Of a stretch of DNA of 61,506 nucleotides, positions 9,319 through 60,689 are shown in pieces. A program made the position numbers and the translations under genes. The stretch comes from Rhodoferax sp. (lineage in GTDB: Bacteria; Pseudomonadota; Gammaproteobacteria; Burkholderiales; Burkholderiaceae_C), in contig JAGPBF010000003.1 in assembly GCA_018063505.1 (NCBI GenBank), forward strand, positions 1-61,506, written 5' to 3'. Below the pieces are notes generated by a model. The model searched no databases and was not told the origin of the DNA. It was given only the letters and a program-made list of their open reading frames with translations. How positions within the stretch are numbered: the stretch's first letter is position 1; each line of letters begins with the position of its first letter.

Positions 9319-10869
9319 ATGATCGAACCCTTCGTGATTGCGCAGCGCGACGACGTCCGGTGCTGCCTGCAGCCCGACAAGGCCAACCGGCACGGCCTGA
9401 TCACCGGCGCCACCGGCACCGGCAAGACCATCACCCTGCAAAACCTGGCCGAAGCGTTCTCGGGGGCCGGCGTTCCGGTGTTCATGGCCGACGTCAAAGG
9501 CGATCTGACTGGTATTTCACAGGCGGGCACGCTGAGCACCAAACTGGGCAAGATCATTGCGGAGCGCAAGCTGCCGACGCCCGAATTTGCAGCGTTCCCG
9601 GTCACCCTGTGGGACGTTTTCGGCGCACAGGGCCATCCGGTGCGGGCCACCGTCAGCGACCTCGGTCCGCTGCTGCTCTCGCGCATGCTCAATCTCAACG
9701 ACACCCAGGCCGGGGTGCTGCAACTGGTGTTCAAGATCGCCGATGACCAGGGTCTGCTGCTGCTGGACATGAAGGATCTGCGCAGTATGTGCCAGCACGT
9801 CGGCGACAACGCATCGCAGTTCACCACCAGCTACGGCAATATCAGCGCCGCCAGCATCGGTGCGATCCAGCGCGGCCTGATGCAGATCGAGAGCCAGGGT
9901 GGCGACAAGTTCTTCGGCGAGCCGATGCTCAATATCGCCGATTTCATGCAGACCGATGGCAGCGGCAAAGGCATCATCAACGTGCTGGCCGCCGACCAGC
10001 TGATGAACGCGCCACGGCTTTACGCCACTTTTTTGTTGTGGCTACTCAGCGAGTTGTTCGAGAACCTGCCCGAGGTCGGCGATCTGGAAAAACCCAAGCT
10101 GGTGTTCTTCTTCGATGAGGCCCATCTGCTGTTCACCGACGCACCCAAGGCCTTGATCGAACGCATCGAGCTGGTCGTGCGGTTGGTGCGCAGCAAGGGC
10201 GTTGGCGTGTATTTCGTGACCCAGAACCCGCTCGATATTCCGGACTCGGTATTGGCCCAACTGGGCAACCGGGTCCAGCATGCGCTGCGCGCCTTCACGC
10301 CGCGCGACCAGAAGGCGGTCAAATCGGCGGCCGACACGATGCGGCCCAACCCCAAGCTCGACATTTCCCAGGCAATCACCGAGCTGGCGGTAGGCGAAGC
10401 CCTGGTCAGTTTCCTGGACGAGAAAGGCCGCCCCAGCGTGACCGAGCGGGTATTCGTGTTGCCACCAGCCAGCCAGATCGGCCCGATCAGCGCGGAGCAA
10501 CGCAAGGCGCTGATTGCCAACTCCATCGTCGCCGGTGTTTACGAAAAGTCCGCCGACCGCGAATCCGCCTACGAAGCGATCACCAAGCGCGTCGAGGCCC
10601 AGATGGCCGATGCGACCACCGCCAAGGAAAAAACTGCATCCATGACCCGTACCGTCGAGGCCCAGGGAGCCGGTAAAAATACCCCGGAAGACGCCGATGG
10701 CGGCATCCTGGGTTCACTTGGCGGACTGCTGGGCGGCGGCCGCAGTCGCACCCGCATGGGCGCCGGCGAACAACTCTTCAAGAGCGCGGCCAGTGCCATC
10801 GGCAGCGAGGTCGGGCGCCAGATCATCCGCGGTGTGCTCGGCGGCATCTTCGGCGGCAAGAAGCGCTGA
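9319..10869 (+). CDS. HerA-like ATPase, DUF853 (YjgR family)
   Basis: A 516-residue P-loop ATPase. Walker A (GATGTGKT) sits near residue 30 after a short beta-rich start, Walker B ([12 protein letters not shown]) near residue 265, and [14 protein letters not shown] contains a sensor-like motif. The C-terminus is Gly/Arg-rich ([12 protein letters not shown]) and ends in a small hydrophobic GGIFGGKKR segment. This is the architecture of YjgR, whose cellular role is not established; homology to HerA DNA translocases is fold-level only. The ATG at 9319 is preferred to the TTG four codons earlier. Divergent from yebC. Confidence 0.88.
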
Positions 10870-51946: not shown

Positions 51947-52873
51947 TCACCGAATTTCGGGTCTTGCCCTGCGGCGGCGGATAACTCCCGCGATGACACC
52001 CAGTCCCGCCAGCAGCATGGCAAAACTCTCCGGCTCCGGAACGGGGGCCGCCGCGCCATAAAGATACTGGGCACCCGCCACATCATCGGCGTCGGGAATC
52101 CTGTTGATCGGTGCCATGCCGTCGGACGGTGCCGGGCCGTTGTACGCGCACGCGCTGCCGTCGAAACTGCCATCCACATAACCGCACATCAATGCGGAGG
52201 CTACGTTCGTATGGGCCAGACCGATCGCGTGCCCGAGTTCATGGGTGAACAATCCCTGAAAATCGTTGTGGTAGTAGCTATCGTGGTCAGGGCTCAGCGT
52301 CGGGGAGGGGTTGGGGTAGAGAAAGTAGGGGTCACCTTCATTCCCTGGCGGAATAGCGTATGCCACGTTCAGGTTGAAAATGACGTCGCCCTCGAGTGTG
52401 GTTCCGCCGTTCGGGGCTGGCGCGAAGCCCACCGCGCCCGAAAACCCATCCAGGTTGTAGGCACCAATGCGGATATTGCCGATGACGCTGGCACCCACGC
52501 CGGCATAGGCGGCCGCGAATGGCACCGATCCGGTCTCGGTCACCTGCACAAAACTGATGTTTGCGACCGCCGACCATTGGCCAAACGCCTTCTGAAGCGC
52601 TGTCAATGCGGTTCCGGCGCCGTACGCCGTGTCGATCTGGGCAAAAAGACTGCCCATATCGGATGTGCCGTGGATATACGTGGGGGCCGCTGCATCGAGG
52701 CCGGTGCCGTCGGCCATCAGGCTCCAAGTCACCACGCCGCCCGGAGTTCCGATGGTGTTCTCTCCCCACTTGCTCGCCTGGTCCGCCCCATACGGGAAGA
52801 CGTTGAATGCAAGCGCCGGAGCGCCCAACACGAAACCCAGCAGACCACCGATCAGCCATTGCGCGTGCTTCAT
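51947..52873 (-). CDS. Matrixin-type metalloprotease with PEP-CTERM sorting tag
   Basis: A 308-residue exported protein: signal peptide (residues 1 to about 22, ending APALAF), a matrixin-like domain with the zinc motif HELGHAIGLAH at 211-221 and a Met-turn-like ALMCGY at 228-232, and a C-terminal PEP-CTERM signal: VPEPES at 278-283, a hydrophobic helix and the basic end RRRRARPEIR. The tag marks it for exosortase processing and surface delivery, so an EpsH/XrtA system must be encoded elsewhere. No propeptide cysteine switch was noticed. GGGGAG precedes the ATG at 52873. Confidence 0.92.
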   Translation of the reverse strand: MKHAQWLIGGLLGFVLGAPALAFNVFPYGADQASKWGENTIGTPGGVVTWSLMADGTGLDAAAPTYIHGTSDMGSLFAQIDTAYGAGTALTALQKAFGQWSAVANISFVQVTETGSVPFAAAYAGVGASVIGNIRIGAYNLDGFSGAVGFAPAPNGGTTLEGDVIFNLNVAYAIPPGNEGDPYFLYPNPSPTLSPDHDSYYHNDFQGLFTHELGHAIGLAHTNVASALMCGYVDGSFDGSACAYNGPAPSDGMAPINRIPDADDVAGAQYLYGAAAPVPEPESFAMLLAGLGVIAGVIRRRRARPEIR

Positions 52874-53120: not shown

Positions 53121-54353
53121 CTATCCGGCGCGACGCAACACCAGGACCGCGTTTGTTCCTCCAAACGCAAACGAGTTGGAGACCATCACCTGGGCGGCGA
53201 AGCCTTCGCGTGCCTCATTGGGAACATAGTCCAGATCGCACTCGGGATCACGCTGCTGCAGGTGCATCGTAGGGAACGCGACCCTGTGCTGCATGGCCAG
53301 TAGCGACAACACACATTCAAGCGCTCCGGCCGCGCCCAGCAAGTGGCCGTGTATGGCCTTGGTTGCGCTGACCGGGATCCGATCGGCCCGAGCGCCGAAA
53401 ACGGCCCTTATCGCGGCCGTCTCGGTCCGGTCGTTGGCCTGGGTTCCCGTGCCATGCGCGTTGATGGCATCCACCTCCTGCGGATCGACCTGGGCGGCAC
53501 GCAGTGCCGCGGTCATCGCCGCAGCCTGGCCCTCCACACTGGGTCGCGTGATGTGGCTCGCGTCATTGGATTGCCCATACCCCAGGATCTCACCGAGGAT
53601 GTGGGCGCCACGTGCCAACGCGCGATCCCAGGGTTCGATGACCAACATCGCAGCGCCCTCACCCAGGAGCATTCCACTGCGGTTCTTCGAGAACGGTCGG
53701 CATGACGCCGCGGGGTCCTCGGTGTCCATGGTGGCCACTGTGTGCAATGCTTCCCACGCCTTCATGGAGCCCGGCGACAGCGGCGCCTCTGCCCCACCCG
53801 CGATGACGACATCGAGCTGACCACATGCCACCCGCATCCAGGCCTCGCCGATGGCCACCGCCGACGACGAGCAGGCGGTTGAATACGTCATGTTCGGACC
53901 GCGCAGGTTGTGCTCGATCCCGATCCATGCGGCTGCCGCGTTGTGCATACCCATCAATATGGTGAACGGCTTGATGCGGTCTGACAGCTCTCCATAGAGG
54001 GTCTGGTATCCGCCATCCATCGTGAGCGTGCCGCCCATCCCCGTCCCGACGAAAACGCCCGCTCGCGAGCGGTCGACGTTCGCCAATGCGCCCTGCGACG
54101 CTTGCACTGCCTGGTTTGCCGCGAACAGGGCGAACAAGCTGAACCGGTCCAGCATGCGCAGCTTGCCCGGATCGAATTCAACCCCTTCGTCAAAGTTTGC
54201 CGTTGCAGCGATAGGCGTGGTAAGCCGGTTCGCAAACGGGATCTCGAGCCTGCGAACACCCGACTGGCCGACGCGCGCACGGGCCAATACCGCTGCCGCG
54301 CTGTTGCCAAGCGGCGAGACCACTCCGATTCCGCTGACCGCGACCCGTCTCAT
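53121..54353 (-). CDS. Beta-ketoacyl-ACP synthase (KAS II type)
   Basis: A 410-residue condensing enzyme with the complete triad: Cys161 in STACSSSAVA, His300 in NAHGTGTQAND and His335 in TKAIHGHLLGAAG. The N-terminus MRRVAVSGIGVVSPLG and C-terminal NSFAFGGTNAVLV are typical of FabF. It is not in a fatty acid synthesis locus but is the last gene of the type III polyketide operon, directly after a dedicated ACP (TGATG overlap). It probably makes or extends the acyl group used by that pathway. A GTG one codon upstream (54356) is an alternative start. Confidence 0.92.
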   Translation of the reverse strand: MRRVAVSGIGVVSPLGNSAAAVLARARVGQSGVRRLEIPFANRLTTPIAATANFDEGVEFDPGKLRMLDRFSLFALFAANQAVQASQGALANVDRSRAGVFVGTGMGGTLTMDGGYQTLYGELSDRIKPFTILMGMHNAAAAWIGIEHNLRGPNMTYSTACSSSAVAIGEAWMRVACGQLDVVIAGGAEAPLSPGSMKAWEALHTVATMDTEDPAASCRPFSKNRSGMLLGEGAAMLVIEPWDRALARGAHILGEILGYGQSNDASHITRPSVEGQAAAMTAALRAAQVDPQEVDAINAHGTGTQANDRTETAAIRAVFGARADRIPVSATKAIHGHLLGAAGALECVLSLLAMQHRVAFPTMHLQQRDPECDLDYVPNEAREGFAAQVMVSNSFAFGGTNAVLVLRRAG

Positions 54354-54640
54354 CACGCGCGCAACGGGGATTGCCCTGACGACGCGGGAGAATGTGTGGT
54401 GCTGCCTTGCTCGGCGACGAGTTGATCAACATAACGAACCACGTCACCGAGTGTGAGCAGTTCCACAGGATCGGATGGCAGCTTGACCTGAAACGCGTCC
54501 TCGATGTTCCAGAGCAGTTCGACGGTGCCAAGCGAGTCGATTCCCAGACTGTCCAGCGGAGCATCCAGTGCCATTTGGTCCGGCTGAAGCTTGTATTCCT
54601 TGATCAGGATCGCACTCAGGCGCTCGAAGGTCGTTGTCAT
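54353..54640 (-). CDS. Acyl carrier protein
   Basis: A 95-residue carrier protein. The 4'-phosphopantetheine site is Ser36 in LGIDSLGTVEL; the surrounding four-helix pattern (FERLSAILIKEY, NIEDAFQVKLP, VRYVDQLVAEQ) is intact. A polar tail of about 18 residues follows helix 4. Its partner is presumably the ketosynthase translated from the overlapping gene downstream. The long frame upstream of ATG 54640 is not similar to ACP. Confidence 0.93.
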   Translation of the reverse strand: MTTTFERLSAILIKEYKLQPDQMALDAPLDSLGIDSLGTVELLWNIEDAFQVKLPSDPVELLTLGDVVRYVDQLVAEQGSTTHSPASSGQSPLRA

Positions 54641-54662
54641 GTCGATTCCCTTGGTAGGCGAT

Positions 54663-55955
54663 TCAATGAACCCGGGATGCGCGGGTCGGTTCGGGTACGG
54701 ATGGCAGAGTGCGCGCAATGCCAGTCGTATCCGCCATCCTGGCGGGGCGGACCTTCGCGCCCCATCGCGCACCTTGCGTGAGGAGTCCGGGCCACACCCG
54801 AACCAGTTCCATCAGAACGGCTGCGCCGCGCCGACGCATGGCGATATGGGCAAAGATGGCGGCCAGGCGCAGACGGGGCGCAAATTCGCGCTGCCAGGAA
54901 GCCGCGTAGGCACGCTGCAACTCGGCCTGGACCGCAGCGCCAGGCACCACCGCGGGGCCGTGACGCCCGAGCAGGTGCGAACACAGAAGCGCCGCCGACT
55001 GCAAGGCCATGCTCATGCCTTCACCCAGAATCGGATGGGCTTCTCCTGCGGAATTGCCGACCCTGAAAATCCTGTCCCGGGCATCCACGCGCACGCCGGT
55101 ATCCAGAGGTCCAGTCGCCAACCAGGGCCCGTCACGCCGGGCGCCATGCAGAGCCTGTTGCACGCCAAGACACGCACGGCGCAGCCAGGCTTCGACGGCA
55201 TCACCCGCGCTAAGGCCAGGCGCGCGGTCGCGCAGCAAGCTCAGCCGATCGCGTCGGATGCAACACGCGAGCGTCATTGTTCCGCCGTCAGCCACCACCA
55301 TGCCACCGTAGCCGCCGTCCAGGGCCAGCACGCTGATCTGGCCCTCGGGCAGAGTCGAACCCGAGAAATTGGCCTTGAAGGCAAACAGGTCGGCCGACCC
55401 GCGTGCCTGCCGGCGCCTGGGTCGGTCCGACGGCAAGTCTTCCCACGACCCGTGGGCATCAACGACGATCGTGGCGTGCAGCCGCAGCAGTGCTGAGGAA
55501 TCGAGCACGCGAACCTCACAGTGCCAGGCGCCGACGCTACCCCGGATCGCCTGCACGGTGCAAGGTTGGAAAACAATTGCGCCTGCTGCGCGGGCCTGCT
55601 CCAGCAGCAAGTTGTCCAGCGTTTCACGACCAAGGGCTCGACCCCAGGGGAAACGAGCGTGGTCGGCGACCGGAAGTTCAGCCGCCACAGCGCTGTCGCC
55701 TCGCAGCAGAGTGACCTGGCGCAGGGGCGGGCCTGCAAGCGTATCAATGGCCACGGCGACTCCCAGCGCTTCGAGCAAGGGAAAGTTGCTGGCCGCGATG
55801 CACTCACCGCACACCTTGCGGCGCGGGAAGCGTTGCCTCTCGATCAAGGCCACGGACCATCCGGCGCGGGCAAGTTGAATGGCCACCGTCGAACCTGCCG
55901 GACCCGCGCCAACAATGACCACGTCGAACTTAGTGGGCGAAGCTTCTCGCGTCAT
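54663..55955 (-). CDS. FAD-dependent oxidoreductase (geranylgeranyl reductase/monooxygenase type)
   Basis: A 430-residue flavoprotein: FAD motif VVIVGAGPAGSTVAIQLARAG at about residues 12-32, CGECIAASNFPLLEALG, a DG-like VVDAHGSWED, and the second FAD element FRVGNSAGEAHPILGEGMSMA near residue 295. This places it among halogenase/geranylgeranyl reductase-like monooxygenases. In the operon it may hydroxylate or oxidise the aromatic or pyrone product of the type III synthase (inference). ATGA overlap with the methyltransferase gene; 22 bases before the ACP gene. Confidence 0.88.
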   Translation of the reverse strand: MTREASPTKFDVVIVGAGPAGSTVAIQLARAGWSVALIERQRFPRRKVCGECIAASNFPLLEALGVAVAIDTLAGPPLRQVTLLRGDSAVAAELPVADHARFPWGRALGRETLDNLLLEQARAAGAIVFQPCTVQAIRGSVGAWHCEVRVLDSSALLRLHATIVVDAHGSWEDLPSDRPRRRQARGSADLFAFKANFSGSTLPEGQISVLALDGGYGGMVVADGGTMTLACCIRRDRLSLLRDRAPGLSAGDAVEAWLRRACLGVQQALHGARRDGPWLATGPLDTGVRVDARDRIFRVGNSAGEAHPILGEGMSMALQSAALLCSHLLGRHGPAVVPGAAVQAELQRAYAASWQREFAPRLRLAAIFAHIAMRRRGAAVLMELVRVWPGLLTQGARWGAKVRPARMADTTGIARTLPSVPEPTRASRVH

Positions 55956-56689
55956 GCGATTTCCATCCGCCGGGCGCTGAAGCAATGGCTGAACATGCCC
56001 GCTGCGAACTCCCGCGTGTCCCAGGCGTCGCCGGCACCTGACCACGCAGCGGTGATCTCGTCGTCACGAAAGCCGGCCCGCACACTCAACACGGCGTCTT
56101 CACGGGTCTCCGCATTGGCCCCGATAACGCCGACAAGATGGCTGCCCAGCAGCGACATTGGCGACCGTTTAGGTTCACATGCGAAGAACCGATCGGTACG
56201 CGAAGCGACCGCGGCAAGCAACGACGCAAGCTGGGGCCCCTCGAAGTGGTGCAGGAACAGCGTGGTGGTGATCAGGTCGCAGCGTGGCAGCGACCCGTCC
56301 GGCGCCACGGGGTCGGTCTGCAGCGCCCAGGTCAACACGTCTGCAACCTGCACCTGCGCAGTCCACCCCAGATCGGCGTAACCTGCCAAGGTAGCGGCGC
56401 TCACGATGTCCTGTTGGTCCAACAGGGTCAGTTGCACCGGTGGCCAGTGCCGCGCCATTGCGCGTGCGACACCGAGCAGCAAACTGCCATCGCCGGCGCC
56501 GATCTCGAGGATCCTCAAGGGCACACGCGCACTTTTTGGCGGGAACAGGTTTTGCCAACCCCGGGACATGATGGCGCGGGTTCCCATGGCGCGATGAACG
56601 CGCACGAGATCGCGTCGCGAGCGTATCGCGGCGGGATCGTCAGGCGCAAGATCATCCAGCGTCTCGCGCACAACCATCCTCGGCGGCAT
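55952..56689 (-). CDS. SAM-dependent methyltransferase
   Basis: A 245-residue class I methyltransferase with motif I ILEIGAGDGSLLLGVA (about residues 60-75), an acidic strand end LTLLDQQD, and a post-motif segment DLITTTLFLHHFEGPQL like UbiE/Coq5-type C- or O-methyltransferases. ATG at 56689 overlaps the synthase stop by one base (TGATG); an ORF extension further upstream would invade that gene. It probably methylates the polyketide core or a hydroxyl added by the flavoprotein. Confidence 0.88.
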   Translation of the reverse strand: MPPRMVVRETLDDLAPDDPAAIRSRRDLVRVHRAMGTRAIMSRGWQNLFPPKSARVPLRILEIGAGDGSLLLGVARAMARHWPPVQLTLLDQQDIVSAATLAGYADLGWTAQVQVADVLTWALQTDPVAPDGSLPRCDLITTTLFLHHFEGPQLASLLAAVASRTDRFFACEPKRSPMSLLGSHLVGVIGANAETREDAVLSVRAGFRDDEITAAWSGAGDAWDTREFAAGMFSHCFSARRMEIA

Positions 56690-57747
56690 CACTGGACCTC
56701 CAACAGCGCGCCATGGCAACTGAAGCCGGCCCCGAAAGACGACAACCACCACCAGCCTGGCGAGGCTGCGTCGGCGAGCGCGGCTTCGAGCACGTAATAG
56801 ACAAAGGCACTCGACAGGTTGCCGTATTCGCGCAGCATGGCCCTGCTGTAGCGCAGAGCGTCAGGCCCCAGTTCCAGCCGGCGTTCCAGCGCCAGCAGCA
56901 CATCGCGGCCGCCCGCATGCATGACCCAGGTACCGACGTCGCCCGGATTCAGGCCGGCCCTGTGGAGCACGGTACCCAGCACCCGCTGCGCATAGTCGGC
57001 CGCCAAGGCAGGTACCGCTCGGGTCAGGATGTTGCGCAGCATGCCGTCTCGCTGCTCGAACATCAGTGCGCTTCGCTCGCCCGGCTCGATGAGGGACGTA
57101 CTGTCCTTCCATTCAATGCCCCTGACCGATGGTCCCGCCTTGCGCGCCAGCACAGCCGCACCAGCGCCATCACCGAACAAGCAGGCGCTGATCAACACGC
57201 CCGGGTCATTGTCGAGGTACATCGCAGCGCTGCTGACTTCTACGCAGATCGACAGCACGTGCTCGCAAGCGCCAGTGGCGAGCAAGGCCTTGCCCAGCAT
57301 CAAGTTCGGAAGCGCCGCGGCGCAGCCCTGGCCAACGAGGTCGAAGGCCTGTACATCGGGTCGCAGTCCGAGACGCTCGACGACATGCCCGGAAAGCCCC
57401 GGACACAGGTATCCCGTGCAGGTACTGACCACCACGGCATCGACTTGCGAGGCGTCCAGTCCGGCCTTGATCAGCGCACGCTCGCCCGCCTGCGCTGCAA
57501 GCGGCGGCGCATGCGTCAGGAAGCGATGCGACAGCGTGTTGGGGTCGATCGTGAACACCTCGTCCAGCGATCCGACCGCCAGGCGGCGCGCCTCGATGCC
57601 GTTGTCACGCTGCAGGACCGTTCTCGCGACGAGGTGGGCCCGCCCGTCCAACCGGGCAAACCAGGCAGATTTCTCGAACGCAACCAGGCATTGAGCTTTG
57701 GTGTAGCGCGATGGCGGATGCGCAGTGCCAACGCCAAGGATGTGCAT
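56689..57747 (-). CDS. Type III polyketide synthase (chalcone/stilbene synthase family)
   Basis: A 352-residue homodimeric condensing enzyme with the family triad Cys142 (GQGCAAALPNL), His277 (WVMHAGGRDV) and Asn310 (REYGNLSSAF). Also seen are DAVVVSTCTGYLCPGL and FGDGAGAAVL. Bacterial members join a CoA- or ACP-bound starter with malonyl-CoA to give alkylresorcinols, alkylpyrones or phloroglucinol-type products. The co-encoded ACP and ketosynthase suggest a fatty acyl-ACP starter. Key enzyme of the six-gene operon; three bases separate it from the small gene upstream. Confidence 0.93.
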   Translation of the reverse strand: MHILGVGTAHPPSRYTKAQCLVAFEKSAWFARLDGRAHLVARTVLQRDNGIEARRLAVGSLDEVFTIDPNTLSHRFLTHAPPLAAQAGERALIKAGLDASQVDAVVVSTCTGYLCPGLSGHVVERLGLRPDVQAFDLVGQGCAAALPNLMLGKALLATGACEHVLSICVEVSSAAMYLDNDPGVLISACLFGDGAGAAVLARKAGPSVRGIEWKDSTSLIEPGERSALMFEQRDGMLRNILTRAVPALAADYAQRVLGTVLHRAGLNPGDVGTWVMHAGGRDVLLALERRLELGPDALRYSRAMLREYGNLSSAFVYYVLEAALADAASPGWWWLSSFGAGFSCHGALLEVQ

Positions 57748-57750
57748 CGC

Positions 57751-57942
57751 TCAGGACACCGACGCGCCAGCCTCTCGCTCGGGAGCGCGGAGCTTGGCCG
57801 GCGCGGCGATGAAGTTGGCGACCGCACGATCGACAGTTCCCTTCAGGACACCCGGGTCCGGTTGGTTGTCCGCGAGCACGGCCAGTGTGGAAACCAGGCG
57901 CCGCGGATCTCTGGGACGCTTGGCCTTGGTGATGGTCTTCAT
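57751..57942 (-). CDS. Small basic protein heading the polyketide operon
   Basis: A 63-residue protein starting at ATG 57942 with GAGG six bases upstream and ending three bases before the synthase ATG. The N-terminus is basic (MKTITKAKRPRDPRR), the middle weakly helical (LVSTLAVLADNQ, GTVDRAVANFIAAP), no membrane segment or cysteine. Not recognised. Conserved spacing and a good ribosome site make it likely real; it could be a regulator, a partner protein of the synthase or a leader. Confidence 0.6.
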   Translation of the reverse strand: MKTITKAKRPRDPRRLVSTLAVLADNQPDPGVLKGTVDRAVANFIAAPAKLRAPEREAGASVS

Positions 57943-58839: not shown

Positions 58840-59042
58840 AACTGTGAGATCTCAAAAGCAGGCATTGCAATGGTGCGTGAAATGACAGGGCCGACCATAA
58901 AACTTCACATGGGGAAAAGGAATTTCAAACGCCATCGGACGGCCCAAGAAAGAGCACATCCACATAGGTGGTTGACTACCAGCGCCGCGCGCCTTACCGT
59001 TTGTCGATCCAATGGAATTCAAACAAGATCGGCAGGGTGAAC

Positions 59043-60689
59043 ATGCGCAGGCTCAAGACGAACCAGAATGACGATTTTCGGATCAAGGCGTACGCCGGCA
59101 CGAACGGCGTGTTGCTGGCGGTCGACCTGGCCGAGTCGCGGCGCGCTGGCCTGCTGGGTTTTGCATTCCGGCAGAAGGAGGCGGCCAAACCCTGGCAGTG
59201 GCTGCTCAACAGCCTGACCTTTCCTGGCCGGGCGCACACGCTGGCGCAGTGGAATGCCACCCCGAGCAACCTCGCACCGATCCAGAAGTTTCGCTGGGCC
59301 GACTACAGCATCGAACCTGGCACCACCTGCCGCTACCGCGTGCACCCGGTCTATGGCACGCCGGCCGCACCTGTTCTGGGCGAGCCGCTGGAACTCAGCG
59401 TGACCACCGACGACGGCAAGCCAGCCGGACATCGCGTCATCTTCAACCGCGCCGTGGCCGCCAGCCAGGCCTTCGGACGCAAGTTTCCCGAGATGGACCA
59501 GTTGCTCTCGCAGCAACCCGAACTGCCGATCGAGGACTGGCCGGCGGCGCCGCGCGATTGGCTGCAACACGGCTTGCTCGATCAGATCCTGGCGTTCATC
59601 GGGCGTGCCAAGCGCACCGCCTGGGCGCTGGACATTGCGATTTACGAGTACGAACTCAAGGCCATCGTGGATGCCGTCAATGCGGCGTACAAACGCGGCG
59701 TGCAGGTGCGTGTGCTCTACCACGCAAAAGCCGGCGATGACCAGACTGCGCAGAACGAGGCCAGCCTGGCGAAGATCCCGGTGGCGAAGAAGCGCGCCCG
59801 TGTCACCAGCCGGATCTTTCACGACAAGTTCATCGTGCTGAGCAAGCTCGGCGCTGGCGGGGTGCGCACGCCGCAGGCGGTGTTGTGCGGCAGTACCAAC
59901 TTCACCGAGAACGGTGTCTATCGACAGGCCAACGTGGTCCATGTGGCCGACGACAAGATGCTGGCCGCGAAGTACCTCGAACTGTTCGGCCAGATATGGT
60001 CGAGTCCGGACGATGTGGCCGCCACCCGCAAATGGATCAGCAAGAACAATCCCATCGACGCATCGAGCGCGCTGTTCGCCGGGTTCTCACCACGGTCGGG
60101 GGGTGCGGATCTGGCCGAGTTCATCCGGGTCATCGGTGGCGCCGACAGGGACCTGCTGTTCGCAACGGCCTTTGCGCTACCGGACGACCTGCTCAATGCG
60201 CTGCTCGGCGCCGAGCACGACGACGTGCTGCGCTACGGCATCCAGAACACCGCAAGCCGCATCACCGGCTTTCACGCCGATCGCACCGCCGAGTTCACAG
60301 CCACCGCCCTGTTGACGAACGGTCTGGAGGGTTGGGTCAAGGAAGGACTCAAGGGACAGCGTGGCAACCTGCTGGTGCACCTGAAGGCGATCGTGGCCAA
60401 TTTCACCAGCGACACGCCGGTGGTCATCAGCGGCAGCCACAACCTCAGCGCATCGGCCAGCAATGGGAACGACGAAAACTACCTGATCGTGCGGGGCGAC
60501 ACCGACCTGGCAGACCGATACGGGCTGGAGATCATCCGCTTTTACGAACACTACCGCTTTCGCTATTACGCCAAACTGCTGAAGTTGCAGAAGGTCCAGC
60601 CGCTGGCCATGGACGACGCGTGGACCCGGCCCTACTACCAGCCTGGCAACCTCAAGTCCCTGTCGCGGCTGCGGTTTTCAGGTCGCTGA
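59043..60689 (+). CDS. Phospholipase D-like protein
   Basis: A 548-residue protein with two PLD-type half-sites. The first is IFHDKFIVLS followed by GSTNFTENG (about residues 255-285), the second VHLKAIVANF followed by SGSHNLSASAS (about 440-470); both keep the HxK and downstream S/N elements, so an active phosphodiesterase dimer-like site is possible. A beta-rich N-terminal domain of about 130 residues (fibronectin-like PGTTCRYRVHPVYG) precedes. No signal peptide. Substrate (lipid or nucleic acid) unknown. ATG 59043 with AGGGTG upstream; GTG 59037 is an alternative. Confidence 0.83.
   Translation: MRRLKTNQNDDFRIKAYAGTNGVLLAVDLAESRRAGLLGFAFRQKEAAKPWQWLLNSLTFPGRAHTLAQWNATPSNLAPIQKFRWADYSIEPGTTCRYRVHPVYGTPAAPVLGEPLELSVTTDDGKPAGHRVIFNRAVAASQAFGRKFPEMDQLLSQQPELPIEDWPAAPRDWLQHGLLDQILAFIGRAKRTAWALDIAIYEYELKAIVDAVNAAYKRGVQVRVLYHAKAGDDQTAQNEASLAKIPVAKKRARVTSRIFHDKFIVLSKLGAGGVRTPQAVLCGSTNFTENGVYRQANVVHVADDKMLAAKYLELFGQIWSSPDDVAATRKWISKNNPIDASSALFAGFSPRSGGADLAEFIRVIGGADRDLLFATAFALPDDLLNALLGAEHDDVLRYGIQNTASRITGFHADRTAEFTATALLTNGLEGWVKEGLKGQRGNLLVHLKAIVANFTSDTPVVISGSHNLSASASNGNDENYLIVRGDTDLADRYGLEIIRFYEHYRFRYYAKLLKLQKVQPLAMDDAWTRPYYQPGNLKSLSRLRFSGR

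Follow-up and report, generated by a model that had tools for sequence, protein, structure and literature searches.

Bacterial operons that join a type III polyketide synthase (PKS) to a methyltransferase and an oxidoreductase have already been described. The srsABC, pkqABC, hidABC and planctomycete operons are tied to modified alkylresorcinols and quinones (PMC10896814, PMC9927152). The planctomycete operons yield pentadecyl- and heptadecylresorcinols, with one extra methyl group when the methyltransferase and oxidoreductase are co-expressed (PMC10896814). The subject of this report is an operon of five genes in Rhodoferax sp. (GenBank assembly GCA_018063505.1, contig JAGPBF010000003.1; the 61,506 nucleotides analysed are called the window). 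Like the srsABC, pkqABC and hidABC types, it has adjacent genes for a type III PKS, a methyltransferase (MT) and a flavin adenine dinucleotide (FAD)-type oxidoreductase, and these are followed by genes for an acyl carrier protein (ACP) and a β-ketoacyl-ACP synthase (KS). While the trio is known, the dedicated ACP–KS module and the distinct clade of the synthase are without a description in the literature searched. The search for this operon, or for an ACP–KS pair beside a type III PKS, covered few subscription journals, so that absence is unproven.

Germicidin synthase (Gcs) is fed by general fatty-acid synthesis. Gcs is able to use acyl-ACP, as are ArsB and ArsC of Azotobacter, which are supplied by ArsA (PMC6274091). 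In the Azotobacter system, acyl chains pass from ACP to type III PKS without coenzyme A (CoA) (PMC6274091), and such a transfer is proposed here. ArsA is a large fatty-acid synthase, whereas the window has a separate ACP and a FabF-type KS. Free-standing ACP or acyl-ACP starters are also found with Gcs and in the cylindrocyclophane pathway, where CylB is the ACP and CylI the type III PKS (PMC8086630, PMC6274091), although CylD and CylH of that pathway are type I PKSs. No ACP–KS pair is described for pkqABC of Mycobacterium smegmatis and Streptomyces sp. MNU77, or for srsABC of S. griseus, as PMC9927152 presents them. The supply of starters to type III PKSs in cells has to date been mostly inferred.

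We consider it about an even prospect that the five genes form a self-contained pathway to a methylated, oxidised phenolic lipid, which may be a quinone, from a starter readied by the ACP and KS. The KS would lengthen an acyl chain on the operon ACP, or make a β-ketoacyl-ACP. The type III PKS would take this chain straight from the ACP, extend it with malonyl-CoA and close the ring, most likely to a resorcinol through aldol cyclisation. The MT would then methylate the ring, and the FAD enzyme would hydroxylate or oxidise it. Step order, starter and product are all predictions, and the types of step are taken by analogy from the planctomycete operons, pkqABC and srsABC, ArsB/ArsC, Gcs and CylB/CylI. 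Because relatives keep the PKS–MT–FAD core without the pair, the ACP and KS would tune or secure the starter without being obligatory.

The operon and its relatives

All five genes lie on the minus strand. In the direction of transcription, they encode the type III PKS (56689..57747, 352 residues), a class I S-adenosylmethionine methyltransferase (55952..56692, 246 residues, GTG start, overlapping the synthase gene by 4 bases), the FAD enzyme (54663..55955, 430 residues), the ACP (54353..54640, 95 residues) and the FabF-type KS (53121..54356, 411 residues, GTG start). Neighbouring genes overlap by 4 bases at three of the junctions and are 22 bases apart at the fourth, in agreement with an earlier, sequence-only reading that placed the genes on one strand at spacings of −4 to +22 bases. 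That reading counted six genes; there are five, its “small protein” being the remnant of a catalase-type gene, considered below. In the genome, a 370-contig draft of 4.56 Mb, the type III PKS C-terminal family is matched only once, by the operon synthase.

All five genes appear to be under constraint: in 24 comparisons of single genes with their counterparts in five relatives, the ratio of nonsynonymous to synonymous change (pN/pS) is 0.13–0.41. The KS (0.13–0.26) is constrained to the same degree as the synthase (0.15–0.29).

An order-wide sample of 398 other genomes has eight that encode synthases at 58–70% identity, spread over several family groups, and the next match is at 34%. In a phylum sample of 397 genomes, 27 others match at E ≤ 1e-22, none of them above 36% identity; no intermediates are thus seen between this clade and other synthases. 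When each species was represented by one genome, 73 loci were found, mostly in Burkholderiales and other Proteobacteria, with four in Nitrospira at 55–56%. Carriers include common environmental bacteria such as Polaromonas, Rhodoferax, Azohydromonas and Accumulibacter. Of 177 matching plasmid records, only that of Caballeronia sp. SBC2 is above 60% identity, and it has all five genes.

The MT gene comes next after the synthase in 67 of the 73 loci, the other six being four contig ends and two broken synthases (L101, L104), and the FAD gene likewise follows the MT across loci. Of the 61 loci with a readable downstream stretch, 44 have the ACP–KS pair after the FAD gene, a frequency that is overstated because the loci were found with peptide patterns from the window’s own synthase, which favour close relatives. 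Wherever it is present, the pair stands directly after the FAD gene. It is absent from 17 loci, including the four in Nitrospira, and the genes found downstream in its place are unrelated to one another. In two loci, L079 and L085, the readable stretch beyond the FAD gene is short, at about 1.3 and 1.1 kb. Nine were set aside for this count, eight as too short and one, L032, a close relative that has an ACP (L032:7520-7801) with no KS behind it. As the sequence-only reading had it, the type III PKS operon has an ACP and KS of its own, and in many relatives selection has maintained this arrangement.

On the synthase tree, which omits five loci because only short pieces of their synthases are present (L098, L100, L101, L103, L104), the distribution of the pair takes at least seven changes of state, or eight on a tree without outgroups. 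A single gain early among the proteobacterial members, followed by several losses, would fit this, with a direction that depends on the root. Gain and loss around a near-identical synthase make starter supply testable by comparing close relatives. A Lysobacter metagenome-assembled genome (MAG), G408, holds two versions of the locus (L085 and L150), both followed downstream by a similar TetR-like regulator; one has no ACP–KS pair and the other a KS split over reading frames. The pair may be in the course of decay here, or the genome may mix strains.

Across the loci, the neighbour comparison found no widely shared gene family besides the five. The neighbours common to at least ten loci were either frames that overlap these genes or, at about ten loci, a small family encoded upstream.

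The synthase clade and its pocket

The synthase scores over the Pfam cut-offs for both FAE1_CUT1_RppA and Chal_sti_synt_C. Alignment of 60 of the 65 locus synthases with that of the window gave 61 rows, and the catalytic residues Cys142, His277 and Asn310, reported as intact by the sequence-only reading, are identical in all of them. An AlphaFold2 model (pLDDT 90.5) has a chalcone-synthase-like fold, with PKS11 of M. tuberculosis as its best Foldseek match (TM 0.91); PKS11 is an alkylpyrone synthase by its PDB titles. The small residues C110, C115, S172 and A175 and this best structural match would fit an acyl tunnel. A different assignment, to the 3,5-dihydroxyphenylacetyl-CoA synthase DpgA, was rejected, as the NF042429 score is 134.8 bits against a cut-off of 425 and the neighbours are MT, FAD, ACP and KS genes, not dpgBCD.

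The synthase belongs to a clade of its own. Phe230, Asn239 and Cys115 are found, from Burkholderiales to Nitrospira, in 61/61 aligned members. They are absent from the 32 other type III PKSs compared, a set that joins 20 sequences from the order and phylum searches to 12 references. Five synthases outside the alignment, together with those of L050 and L036, have the same residues at their readable positions. In chalcone-synthase numbering, every aligned member has Cys132, Cys137, Ala197, Phe256 and Asn265. Of these, Cys137, Phe256 and Asn265 occur in none of the others, and 31 of the 32 have Trp at 256. On the tree, the synthase stands apart from references of known product. With the pair also conserved beside it in many relatives, neither half of the refuting case named in the sequence-only reading (clustering with enzymes of known product, ACP and KS genes not conserved) is borne out. 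The branches to the reference synthases are so long that the sister group of the clade is not placed. Since the synthase forms its own clade, its product is not transferable from a known enzyme. An active-site set absent from 32 other synthases also makes the clade a good place to seek new ring chemistry or a new lipid.

The sequence-only reading had likened the enzyme to the SrsA and ArsB/ArsC kind. This holds for the plan of the operon; the synthase itself departs from it, with at most 36% identity outside the clade in the phylum sample and, at the position taken for ArsB Trp281, Phe in place of the Trp of 31/32 others. The planctomycete operon and the cyanobacterial hidABC, which makes hierridins, have the same three kinds of gene, and the MT and FAD enzyme of Paludisphaera match those of the window by profile. 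They differ in the order MT–FAD–PKS, in a synthase that is 28% identical and in having Trp and Met where the clade has Phe and Asn, and the planctomycete-type stretch L108 has no ACP–KS pair. The planctomycete and Deinococcus stand-ins for the characterised operons match in MT and FAD by profile, with synthases only 28–31% identical.

In Azotobacter, Trp281 of ArsB and Gly284 of ArsC decide between resorcinol and pyrone, and the W281G change turns ArsB from resorcinol to pyrone production (PMC6274091). Mycobacterial synthases are said to keep the Trp (PMC9927152), and the same paper stresses Trp at ArsB position 281. ArsB Trp281 is placed at position 256 by inference: Gly284 and Met293 are nine residues apart, like 256 and 265, and PKS11 has Trp there.

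The loss of this Trp, the W281G result and PKS11 as best match all favour an alkylpyrone as the product. The starter would be supplied in the same way, and a pocket with Phe230 and Asn239 would lactonise the chain, leading to a methylated, oxidised alkylpyrone. We consider this unlikely. The substitute in the clade is a bulky aromatic Phe, not Gly, and the PKS–MT–oxidoreductase operons found with a known product give resorcinols or quinones. An aldol route to a resorcinol remains likely, Phe being bulky. All the same, Phe at the presumed ArsB-281 position together with the polar Asn means that ring closure may differ from that of other synthases.

Several observations weigh against the resorcinol pathway with its dedicated ACP–KS supply. 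In the pocket, Asn265 stands where the 32 others carry Met, Val, Ile, Leu, Cys or Phe, and Phe at the position taken for ArsB Trp281 sets the clade outside the ArsB kind. PKS11 also has Trp at 256 though titled an alkylpyrone synthase, so this residue alone does not settle resorcinol versus pyrone. No member of the clade has an assigned product, and the product class is a prediction. No synthase residue tracks the presence of the pair after correction for ancestry; the best raw Fisher result of several hundred column-letter tests, at position 37 (p = 1.5e-5), comes down to four independent pairs on supported branches and is non-significant. In the even sample of the order, the pair is found in only three of nine carriers (the window genome, G387 and G114). 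It is lacking within 12 kb in G036, G081 and G090, and also in G280, G346 and G200, which are on the same contigs as L078, L079 and L077. The reading of a dedicated pair is weakened in that the pair, absent from 17 of the 61 loci and from six of the nine carriers, is not essential to the operon. Finally, the MT and FAD enzyme belong to large superfamilies, in which profile matches are not proof of equal function.

The ACP–KS pair

The ACP matches Pfam PP-binding over its cut-off, scores too low to pass any of the NCBIfam ACP models shown and has the phosphopantetheine Ser36 of the sequence-only reading, which lies within GIDSL. A G-x-DSL motif is present in 43 of 47 ACP matches of relatives, the other four being missed by the pattern. 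The KS has Pfam ketoacyl-synt domains, the motifs TACSSS, HGTGT and TKAIHGH, and a score of 420.8 bits against NCBIfam PRK07314, over the cut-off of 387. A housekeeping FabF was rejected as its identity: the TIGR03150 equivalog gives 425 bits against a cut-off of 493.75, and the 46 operon KSs form one clade (support 100/99) that excludes the 12 housekeeping FabF rows as well as the other KS types. The nearest relatives of the window KS are from Roseateles, Azohydromonas and Rubrivivax. Its TACSSS, TKAIHGH and SNSFAFGG differ from the TACTTG, TKSMTGH and NSFGFGG of FabF. As majority letters, TACSSS, TKxxHGH and SNSFAFGG are common to the operon KSs and other non-FabF KSs, a few operon rows having TACASS or SACSSS.

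The pair could instead be a travelling fatty-acid accessory module, serving membrane chain length for example, that does not feed the synthase at all. The PKS–MT–FAD trio persists without it, and a related KS type (43–53% identity) is found in 61 further genomes of the order, in many of which the ACP–KS pair is unlinked to such a synthase; at six of nine fetched loci, an alpha/beta-hydrolase-like gene lies near it. Yet KSs of at least 58% identity occur in only 3/399 genomes of the order, all of them carriers of the synthase, and the pair’s fixed place after the FAD gene, its constraint equal to that of the synthase, and the ACP and KS genes directly before a distant Novosphingobium synthase all speak against this possibility, which we judge improbable.

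The hydrolase-like gene, ACP and FabF-type KS stand in a row in many genomes of the order (L172 and L174-L177, and also L147, L149 and L152), and an aminotransferase-like gene is found near such a row at L174, L175 and L178. In some genomes without a linked pair, an unlinked ACP–KS lies elsewhere (L147, L148, L149, L152, L153), and may supply the starter in trans.

The Novosphingobium case is found in N. pentaromativorans plasmid pLA3 (L115:2554-6197), where ACP and KS genes directly precede a type III PKS gene and an FAD gene follows, with an MT gene nearby on the other strand. The synthase is 32% and the KS 43% identical to those of the operon. The KS falls outside the operon KS clade and meets the KS of L151 on the tree, both on long branches. 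This is probably a separate recruitment. In a bolder version of the proposed pathway, the KS would make a β-ketoacyl chain on the dedicated ACP, a synthase with a re-cut pocket (Phe230, Asn239, Cys115) would accept the chain directly and close a ring unlike those of characterised type III PKSs, and a similar module would have arisen again in Novosphingobium. We offer this only tentatively, as rather doubtful.

Partner enzymes and flanking sequence

The MT is matched by Methyltransf_12 at E = 5e-5, under the Pfam cut-off. The FAD enzyme belongs to the geranylgeranyl reductase / flavin monooxygenase / halogenase superfamily; it scores over the Pfam cut-off for FAD_binding_3 and falls short of GG-red-SF (93.3 bits against 158.8). 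Both superfamilies also adjoin type III PKSs in Deinococcus, Microvirga, Roseomonas and Paludisphaera. Profile matches beside type III PKSs were found for the MT in Paludisphaera (2.4e-13), Deinococcus (1.6e-13) and Novosphingobium (5.8e-10), and for the FAD enzyme in Paludisphaera (E = 7.9e-27) and Deinococcus (3.5e-10). At L194 and L202, an MT 43% and an FAD enzyme 45–47% identical to those of the operon lie beside a synthase of 32% identity, with no ACP–KS pair seen; judged from these sequences, partners have apparently been exchanged between the MT/FAD genes and the type III PKS family.

The model of the FAD enzyme (pLDDT 90) is matched in Foldseek by FasV, CmlS, CndH, 3-hydroxybenzoate 6-hydroxylase and PqsL. 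Flavin halogenases rank first in this list, and together with a synthase pocket unlike those compared, they raise the thought of a different chemistry, in which the FAD enzyme would halogenate or the KS would join a second acyl chain, giving a product outside the alkylresorcinol and alkylpyrone group. Flavin-dependent halogenases are marked by a WxWxI(P) motif. WxWxI is found in 0/53 FAD rows, and the assignment as a halogenase was rejected; hydroxylases stand in the same Foldseek list, and nothing points directly to a second acylation. Such a product is very unlikely.

The sixth open reading frame (ORF) of the sequence-only reading, of 63 residues (57751..57942, minus strand), lies outside the pathway. 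Neither Pfam nor NCBIfam gave a match for it. The synthases of L036 and L032 share 90% (over 305 residues) and 89% identity, respectively, with that of the window, and in both loci an open frame some 800 codons long ends 3 bases short of the synthase gene; by our reading of its sequence, this frame is of catalase type. The ORF corresponds to the last ~42 residues of this frame (tblastn from L036, 57%, E = 1.7e-7, window 57766-57882; from L032, 49%, E = 3.8e-5, 57763-57882). Catalase-type sequence lies within about 100 bases of the synthase in only 3 of 70 relatives with at least 500 readable bases upstream, whole in L032 and L036 and broken in L091. Given the matching frame end and this rarity, the ORF was rejected as a pathway gene and is a C-terminal remnant. 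L091 belongs to a MAG of the Rhodanobacteraceae and stands at a distance from the window on the synthase tree; its pieces (9343-9941) also lie just upstream of the synthase. The four cases together suggest a recurrent or shared place of insertion behind catalase genes, or chance.

A scan of the window for RNA families and tRNAs found none. Directly downstream of the KS gene, 51947-52870 (minus strand) encodes a matrixin-type metalloprotease with a PEP-CTERM sorting tail, and 59040-60689 (plus strand) encodes a protein with PLD-like domains.

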